Shown piece by piece: positions 36,491-38,852 of a DNA stretch of 42,650 nucleotides. The notes below the pieces were generated by a model, which was given only the letters and a program-made list of their open reading frames with translations, did no database searches and was not told the origin of the DNA. Numbering within the stretch: position 1 is the stretch's first letter; each line of letters begins with the position of its first letter. This stretch comes from Cyanobacteria bacterium MH1_Bin12 (GTDB lineage: Bacteria > Cyanobacteriota > Cyanobacteriia > Cyanobacteriales > Cyanobacteriaceae). The translations under genes and the position numbers were made by a program. Where the stretch lies: contig JAALKG010000004.1 of assembly GCA_011088145.1 (NCBI GenBank), positions 1 to 42,650 of the forward strand, given 5' to 3'.

Positions 36491-37231
36491 ATGATGAAAA
36501 GGTTACTCTTACTATTTAGTTTAATTATTTGCTTAACAGGTTGCGTAAATTATGATGTTGGGATCAATTTTCCTCAAGCGAATCAAGGTACGATTACTCA
36601 ACAAATCAAACTTAGTGAACAATTAAGCAATGTGAGTGAAAAAGAAGGACATGCATGGTTGAAGAGTTTAGAGAAAAAGGCTTCTACATTGCAGGGAAAA
36701 AGTGAATATTTATCTTCTGATGAAATATTACTGACAATTCCTTTTAGCAATGGACAAGAATTAGTCAATAAATTTAATCAATTTTTTCTTCCTTTTAATA
36801 ATGAGACCACTACTAATTATTTATCTAGGGATGAAAATTTGAATTTATTGGATTTATCAGCAAATTTATCCATCAATCAAAATAATGCCATTTTGATCGA
36901 ACGTAATACTCTTAAACTGACAACGGATTTAACTTCTTTAGGGGTAACTTCTGGTGATGGAAATATGATTTTTTCTTCAGGGGATTTAATTAATTTACAA
37001 GTAAAGTTAAATTTTCCTTGGGGTGCCAAAATTATTACCAATGAATTTGCTCAATGGGAAAAATTACCCCATCATCAATATAATATTCAATTACAAGCAG
37101 GACAAATTAACGAAATTACAGCTATTTTTTGGATTCCTAACTACGTTGGTTTAGGAACTATAGTTATTCTTGTGGTGATAATTTTTGGTTTTTATGCTAA
37201 ATATCGCAGATTACCTTTAATAGATAACTAA
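36491..37231 (+). CDS. DUF3153 lipoprotein
   Basis: 246 residues. MMKRLLLLFSLIICLTGC is a lipoprotein signal with lipobox LTGC (acylated Cys18). The following domain (about 19-210, starting VNYDVGINFPQANQGTITQQI) matches DUF3153 of cyanobacteria and chloroplast-related bacteria. A single membrane helix lies at about 215-237, with a short basic tail. It would be anchored at both ends with the domain outside the cytoplasm. Function is unknown. ATG 36491 or 36494 may start translation. Confidence 0.85.
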   Translation: MMKRLLLLFSLIICLTGCVNYDVGINFPQANQGTITQQIKLSEQLSNVSEKEGHAWLKSLEKKASTLQGKSEYLSSDEILLTIPFSNGQELVNKFNQFFLPFNNETTTNYLSRDENLNLLDLSANLSINQNNAILIERNTLKLTTDLTSLGVTSGDGNMIFSSGDLINLQVKLNFPWGAKIITNEFAQWEKLPHHQYNIQLQAGQINEITAIFWIPNYVGLGTIVILVVIIFGFYAKYRRLPLIDN

Positions 37232-37588
37232 TCTTGCCCATGATAGAAATTTGTGAGCAATTTTTGAGTAATCTATCTCATGGTTAACAAACTCACATCA
37301 AAAACTTTAATCTCTGTGTTCTTTGTGGTTAAGAATAAACAACAGTTAGAGATTCCCACCAGATTTTAACTAAAATGTAAATATATCGACAATCAAAAAA
37401 TTTTAGTGCGTAACATCAGATAAATTATTGATAACTTGTTGTTTTTGCTTTTGTCTAATTTGTCGATGATAAACCACATTCATTTTGAAAATGGGAGTTT
37501 GTTTGATTAGTAATTTAGTTAAAACAATTGAGCTTTTCCCTTATTTAGGAAAAAATTTGACTAATTATTGTGTTTATTTCACTCACAG

Positions 37589-37612
37589 AAAATGTTCATG
37601 TATGAACATTTT
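37589..37612. repeat. 24-bp palindrome, copy 1
   Basis: Arms AAAATGTTCAT and ATGAACATTTT (11 bp each, perfect) around GT. It reads on into GAAGGCTC. It could be an operator or a hairpin. Confidence 0.7.
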
Positions 37613-37752
37613 GAAGGCTCATATTAAGGGCTTATTGAGGCTTTAAAGGTGTCTTAAATTGACTTTATTTTGGAGAAAGAATTTTTGTTGTAGATACTCA
37701 AAAGCTGGTTAGGTCAAAGAATAAGATTAAATCAGATAGAATTAGAGAGGGT

Positions 37753-37776
37753 AAAATGTTCATGTACGAACATTTT
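37753..37776. repeat. 24-bp palindrome, copy 2
   Basis: Differs from copy 1 by one base (T to C at position 15), leaving 9-bp perfect arms AAAATGTTC/GAACATTTT around ATGTAC. It begins 164 bp after copy 1 and is followed by GAAAATCAG. Confidence 0.7.
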
Positions 37777-37818
37777 GAAAATCAGAAATAAAGCTAGCAA
37801 AACAATTCATCAACAGAA

Positions 37819-37842
37819 AAAAAGTTTATGGGCAAACATTTT
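37819..37842. repeat. 24-bp palindrome, degenerate copy 3
   Basis: Nineteen of 24 positions agree with copy 2 (AAAAAGTTTATG then GGCAAACATTTT). It begins 66 bp after copy 2 and 168 bp before the M28 peptidase start. Confidence 0.5.
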
Positions 37843-38009
37843 TAACAAAGTTTAAGTTAAAAAATGAGTTTTTATTCTAATTGAAAACAGCTGTTCTGAA
37901 GATAAACGTGGTTTAATATCAGATAATATATTTTTGAAAATTGACAGTAATAAATCTTGAATTTGTGAGTTATGATCTTTTTATTGTGCAGTGAGCTTAA
38001 TGTGAATTA

Positions 38010-38852
38010 GTGAAAAATATTCAAGATAATTTAACTAATCATTTAAAGGTAATAATTAGAAAAAGAGATCCTTTTTTTGCCATGGAAGGACATTTTTTTG
38101 TCAGAGAATATATTAGAAAAGAGTTAAGTAATTTTGGTAATATACAGCAACAAAATTTTGAATTTAACGGTAAGATATATCAAAATTTAATTTTAGATTT
38201 ATGCGTAGATAAACAAGTTATCAATAAATCTCCTATTGTAATTGGTGCACATTACGACACAGTTTTTGGTTCAGCAGGTGCTGATGATAATGCAACAGGA
38301 ATTGCTGTTTTGTTGGAATTAGCCCAATTTTTTAGTAGTCATAAAGCAGATTATCCTCTTCGTTTTGTTGCTTTTGATTTGGAGGAATATGGATTATTAG
38401 GAAGTAAAGCTTATGCTAATTTTTTAAACAAAGAAAAACAACCGATTAGATTAATGCTTAGTTTAGAAATGTTGGGTTATTGTGATTCTAAACCTCATTC
38501 ACAAAGATACCCTGCTGGACTAAGTTATTTTTATCCTTCCACTGGCAATTTTATTGCCTTGGTAGGTAATGTTTTTACTATTGGTGAAATGATCAATCTT
38601 CATCGAAATATTCAGACAAAAGTTAATTGTCAGTGGCTACCTGCTGGAATTAAAGGTTCGATTGTACCTGACACTAGACGTAGCGATCATGCTCCTTTTT
38701 GGGACAATGGTTATAAGGCGATTATGGTAACAGATACAGCTAATCTTAGAAATCCCTATTATCATCTTGCCAGTGATACTTTTGAGACTTTAGATTTAGA
38801 TTTTTTAACGAGTGTTTGTCTGGGTTGGATCTTGGGAATTCAAGGGTTATAG
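38010..38852 (+). CDS. M28-family metallopeptidase
   Basis: 280 residues from GTG 38010; a stop codon lies in frame just upstream of any earlier start. The di-zinc aminopeptidase motifs are present: GAHYDTVFGSAGADDNATG near 86-104 (His and Asp ligands), DLEEYGLLGS near 127-136 (catalytic Glu and ligand Glu), LSLEML near 149 and SDHAPFWDNGYKAIMVTDTA near 228-247 (last His). There is no signal peptide, so it is probably cytosolic. Substrate unknown. The palindrome array lies just upstream and may control it. Confidence 0.88.
   Translation: MKNIQDNLTNHLKVIIRKRDPFFAMEGHFFVREYIRKELSNFGNIQQQNFEFNGKIYQNLILDLCVDKQVINKSPIVIGAHYDTVFGSAGADDNATGIAVLLELAQFFSSHKADYPLRFVAFDLEEYGLLGSKAYANFLNKEKQPIRLMLSLEMLGYCDSKPHSQRYPAGLSYFYPSTGNFIALVGNVFTIGEMINLHRNIQTKVNCQWLPAGIKGSIVPDTRRSDHAPFWDNGYKAIMVTDTANLRNPYYHLASDTFETLDLDFLTSVCLGWILGIQGL

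Follow-up and report, generated by a model that had tools for sequence, protein, structure and literature searches.

The two palindromes upstream of the peptidase M28 gene of Cyanobacteria bacterium MH1_Bin12 are, with high confidence, internal parts of an IS630-type MITE rather than operators lined up before a single gene. As a MITE the element is ordinary; what is unusual is how well its interior is conserved. What appeared to be an operator array is thereby reassigned to a mobile element, and a false lead on the regulation of M28 is removed. Here, the window is the whole 42,650-nucleotide stretch that was analyzed, which is contig C99 of a 2.57-Mb genome (190 contigs, 67.5% complete). The coordinates of the features are collected in Table 1.

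Table 1. Features of the region between the DUF3153 and peptidase M28 genes, in window coordinates
Feature	Position	Strand	Description
DUF3153 gene	36491-37231	+	upstream neighbor, 238 bp from the MITE
MITE	37470-37915	+	446 bp; dispersed copies in its own genome; ends match an IS630-family insertion sequence (IS)
Left terminal inverted repeat, TAAACCACATTCATTTTGAAAATGGGAGTTTGTT	37470-37503	+	consensus 27/34 against right end and 27/34 against IS left end; shuffled maximum 18-19
TA, left edge	37470-37471	none	presumed target-site duplication; TA edges of copies bounded by terminal repeats and of four related IS copies
Palindrome P1	37589-37612	none	arms AAAATGTTC / GAACATTTT, core ATGTAT; arms invariant in 8 aligned copies
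Palindrome P2	37753-37776	none	arms of P1, core ATGTAC; arms invariant in 7 aligned copies
Degenerate look-alike (third copy of the initial annotation)	37819-37842	none	inside the element; 7/24 columns invariant
Right terminal inverted repeat	37882-37915	-	minus strand starts TAAACCACGTTTATCTTCAGAACAGCTGTTTTCA; consensus 24/34 against IS right end, shuffled maximum 20; also a pattern match
TA, right edge	37914-37915	none	presumed target-site duplication; TA edges as for the left edge
Peptidase M28 gene	38010-38852	+	downstream neighbor, 94 bp from the MITE

The initial annotation described an intergenic region of about 780 bp upstream of the M28 gene, whose product matches Pfam PF04389 (1e-32); the measured gap to the DUF3153 gene is 778 bp. 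It also described two palindromes that differ by a single base and lie 164 bp apart, and both their coordinates and their sequences were reproduced: P1 is AAAATGTTCATGTATGAACATTTT and P2 is AAAATGTTCATGTACGAACATTTT, with a start-to-start distance of 164 bp. Each consists of 9-bp arms around a 6-bp core of mostly alternating purines and pyrimidines. At up to three mismatches, these two are the matches in the window, while 100 shuffles gave 0. The third palindrome that had been proposed did not hold up. A 27-nt stretch lying 66 bp beyond P2 has 74% similarity to the palindrome, but 37819-37842 shows weak self-complementarity and, apart from the two cores, is the least conserved part of the repeat described below. 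It is a part of that repeat and no third site.

Across the genome, a search at up to three mismatches found 16 palindromes, against 0 for the reversed-pattern control, and these include six pairs, each spaced exactly 164 bp. Since the spacing is fixed, the palindromes belong to a larger repeated unit, and all 16 lie within copies of a single repeat or remnants of it. Every genome match at up to one mismatch is carried by the element, and the extra matches to a looser pattern all have two mismatches and stay at control level (28 in total versus 35 in the control). When blastn was run with the whole element, a search that does not need the palindromes, it recovered pair-bearing copies on contigs C43, C65, C21, C181, and C31. 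The six pair-bearing copies are 78 to 87% identical (13-22% different) outside the palindromes. Partial copies, which are deleted, truncated, or fragmentary, lie on C129, C24, C119, C41, C107, C54, C189, C33, and C76. All copies that were examined are intergenic, and their neighbors are unrelated genes in varied orientation, with some copies in downstream positions.

Alignment of the copies set the ends of the repeat at TAAACCACATTCATTTTGAAAA... and ...GAAGATGAACGTGGTTTA. These ends form terminal inverted repeats of about 33 bp (TAAACCAC...GTGGTTTA), and in the family consensus the left and right ends are identical as inverted repeats at 27 of 34 positions (shuffled maximum 19). Matches to the terminal-repeat pattern fall mostly on copies that blastn had found. 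The repeat thus has the features of a MITE: it is multi-copy, falls within about 50 to 600 bp, has terminal inverted repeats and a patchy distribution, and carries no transposase ORF, none of at least 90 aa overlapping it. It accounts for 446 of the 778 bp between the DUF3153 and M28 genes, and the unusually long M28 leader is therefore due to the insertion of the MITE. The alternative in the initial annotation of a mobile palindrome family came close, in that all 16 palindromes lie in one dispersed element bounded by terminal repeats, but the palindrome itself is not the dispersed unit. In the genome-wide search proposed there as a check, the copies proved to be dispersed, and every copy examined was intergenic.

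Some copies have been rearranged. In the C119 and C33 copies, the left flank of P1 is fused to the right flank of P2 and one palindrome remains, a structure that may reflect recombination between P1 and P2 as direct repeats, which would give such deletions, or a shorter subfamily. The deletion in the C107 copy is joined at a shared CATTTTGAAAAT. The C31 copy has lost its 3' end, and the right part of the C181 copy is partly replaced. Short heptamer runs of the CCTTTGCCC type occur in or beside MITE copies (C181:6608-6690, locus L020; also beside the C31 and C33 copies), and at C181 one such run seems to have taken the place of part of the copy.

The ends of the element point to the IS630 family. 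Seven further genomes of the order share their signature (controls 0); in these it bounds short MITEs of about 120 bp (loci L250 and L253) and a decayed IS (L252). Using the transposase remnant of this decayed IS as the query, we obtained 13 matches to its transposase in genome G250, and comparison of four copies defined an IS of 1204 bp. The four copies share the boundaries TAAACC...GGTTTA with TA at both edges. Two reading frames of this IS match HTH_23 (6e-10), HTH_33 (7e-14), and DDE_3 (2e-27), an architecture (HTH plus DDE_3) that is of IS630 type. The MITE is shown here with its left end equated to the end of the related IS that lies on the 5' side of the transposase. It matches the IS at 27 of 34 positions at the left end (shuffled maximum 18) and at 24 of 34 at the right end (shuffled maximum 20). 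Its own genome, as assembled at 67.5% completeness, contained no complete autonomous partner IS; it does contain a decayed C-terminal transposase remnant of this type (C16:2069-2203, 53% identity), which runs directly into AAATTACGGTTTTCAACCTGAACGAGATTTA, a right end of the matching type. A complete partner is required only for current activity and not for descent.

From these similarities, we infer that the MITE was moved by an IS630-type transposase. Such a transposase would mobilize it in trans by recognizing the ends of about 33 bp that start with TAAACCNC. IS630 elements duplicate TA on insertion. Together with this family trait, the TA edges suggest that TA is the duplicated target, and a TA in the gap between DUF3153 and M28 was presumably where the MITE inserted. 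The related G250 IS lacks a palindrome of the P1/P2 kind, so any requirement of the palindromes for transposition would be conjectural.

A DDE_3 transposase on C24, whose stop codon lies only a few bases from a palindrome, was considered as the parent of the element, with the palindromes as its inner ends. The boundaries instead show a separate IS inserted in a MITE copy: full-length relatives of the C24 IS end in TAAGTA... near the stop codon, and on C24 this TAAGTA end abuts CATA inside the MITE copy, as a passenger insertion would. We give this parentage practically no credence. The C24 sequence (L017:4562-5053) is a different IS630-type element with the end TAAGTACTCAGACAAAATTAATTACAT, inserted at CATA and with its 5' part unrecognizable there; its relatives have many copies in genome G004. 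A REP or REPIN origin, in which a tyrosine (RAYT) transposase would move the palindromes, is just as remote. The constant distance within each pair would suit it. However, the palindrome is not itself dispersed and never occurs outside the element, no pair without flanking terminal repeats was seen in the genome, the repeated unit is bounded by terminal repeats with IS630-type ends, and the copy number is low.

The initial annotation favored repeated operators in the M28 leader, bound cooperatively by an undescribed regulator. The perfect dyad symmetry and the conserved arms are compatible with a dimeric DNA-binding protein, and the MITE ends only 94 bp before the M28 start. Against operators, the spacing and flanks of the palindromes are set by the element and not by the gene, every palindrome in the genome is carried by the element with no stand-alone copy, and the neighbors of the MITE belong to no common gene class. 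Sites upstream of several genes and free of a mobile element, as a regulon would have, were not found. A scan of the M28 leader gave no excess of sigma-70 promoters and no terminator. Footprinting at M28 homologues had been suggested as a check; the homologues in G003 and G007 (about 40% identity) lie in different gene neighborhoods, and these two genomes contain no such palindrome anywhere. Absence from close relatives had been named as weakening a regulatory role, and the element has no match in 14 genomes of the same family. We consider operators for M28 very unlikely.

Further afield, a scan across the order (391 genomes) turned up nothing beyond short or end-like matches to the MITE, and the plasmid and phage collections gave no match. 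The relatives are too distant to provide an empty site.

The conservation of the MITE interior is unusual. All 36 arm columns are invariant, versus 192 of 330 background columns (Fisher 1.7e-8, an optimistic value since these statistics count related copies as independent), and of 446 circular shifts, the arm mask scores best. Private mutations, which we assume to have mostly arisen after insertion, are less affected by relatedness: the arms have 0 versus 13.7 expected (1 with the C33 remnant included; binomial 5e-6). The terminal repeats have 3% and 5% private mutations per site, and the arms are conserved more strictly than these repeats. The core behaves differently. Its pairwise difference is 0.35 to 0.37 versus 0.15 to 0.19 for the background, about twice as high, and its differences comprise 97 transitions and 7 transversions versus 668 and 602 in the background. 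It nevertheless keeps its mostly alternating purine-pyrimidine pattern, with C119 as the exception.

The arms thus seem to be maintained after insertion, and for that reason a need for transposition alone is insufficient as an explanation. Arms without a private mutation in resident copies that are otherwise decaying are unexpected for the interior of a MITE. They lead us to predict that some protein or process recognizes AAAATGTTC-N6-GAACATTTT. Of the regulator binding proposed initially, the operator array falls away while the idea of recognition survives: the arms are kept beyond neutral expectation, so recognition by some protein is likely.

RNA hairpins that terminate transcription in both directions or stabilize mRNA (A-run, stem, and U-run on both strands) might also keep the arms intact, a function within the MITE that is compatible with its identity. 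P1 and P2 each fold alone (-7.5 and -7.0 kcal/mol, z about -3.8), and the part containing G-C pairs is flanked by A-runs and T-runs; the fold of the whole element is unremarkable (z -1.84). On the other hand, the stem is weak with two G-C pairs, a consensus-based scan found no terminator-like site, and Rfam gave no match. Paired arm changes, which a hairpin could tolerate, are absent from the 15 aligned palindromes; a hairpin explains the symmetry but not this absence. We regard hairpins as an unlikely reason for the intact arms.

A dimeric DNA-binding protein that touches only the arms, either a transposition co-factor or a host protein, would explain both the invariance of the arms and the freedom of the core, the sites being preserved by selection after insertion. 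We put this forward tentatively, at somewhat short of an even chance. The transitions in the core would fit deamination in an exposed hairpin loop. A further step, that the MITE spreads a candidate bipartite protein-binding site that the host needs or that the putative protein keeps intact, is speculative and rather improbable. If true, transposition would have assembled the sites of an undescribed DNA-binding protein of cyanobacteria with a nucleoid, segregation, or regulatory role, and the palindromes found between genes in other cyanobacteria, which have the same arms but different flanks, would be sites of the recognizer outside the element.

Of the 391 genomes of the order, 102 contain the arms at up to one mismatch, versus about a dozen in the control. 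Among the matches examined, many encode the motif KMFLQEHF or KMFVQEHF, and some are intergenic with other flanks. An arm scan of genome contigs gave at least 116 stretches; the four Nostoc-type matches inspected were all coding (KMFLQEHF in one protein). At loci L100, L109, L132, L176, L299, L304, L327, and L329-L331, the palindrome is a coincidental product of coding for the conserved peptide KMFLQEHF, or a variant of it, in a single protein family that by eye resembles radical SAM ArsS; this inflates any motif search. In genus g55 (family f31; L313-L316, L303, L306-L308), intergenic palindromes with the same arms share the flank GTGTACCTATTCAAAAATC...TGGAGAC and have the appearance of a separate, small dispersed repeat centered on the palindrome. 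In genus g2 of the window's family (L326, L328), AAAATGTTC-N6-GAACATTT(T/C) occupies one orthologous intergenic place in two species, between genes for a membrane protein (TauE-like by eye) and a DedA/TVP38-like protein. Genomes G034 and G060 (genus g25) have five and six arm matches, respectively (control 0). The intergenic palindromes may offer a lead on a common recognizer, and no proof of one.

Several known systems resemble the element. REP/REPIN sequences (PMC3116915, PMC3733652) are also extragenic palindromes, and those described here are paired; unlike in REP/REPIN, what is dispersed here is not the palindrome itself, and a link to a RAYT was not seen. Among cyanobacterial MITEs, Nezha (cited in PMC10969869) and the 147 MITEs of Anabaena sp. 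90 (PMC3542288) are likewise small, mostly intergenic, and bounded by terminal inverted repeats; in the descriptions consulted, no conserved inner pair of palindromes is mentioned. The closest likeness is to the IS630-derived MITEs of the IS630/Tc1/mariner superfamily, which are also short, non-coding, multi-copy, and intergenic, with terminal inverted repeats, TA edges, and IS630-type ends. Unlike these, the element described here contains a pair of 24-bp palindromes that have identical arms, lie 164 bp apart, and are more conserved than its terminal repeats.
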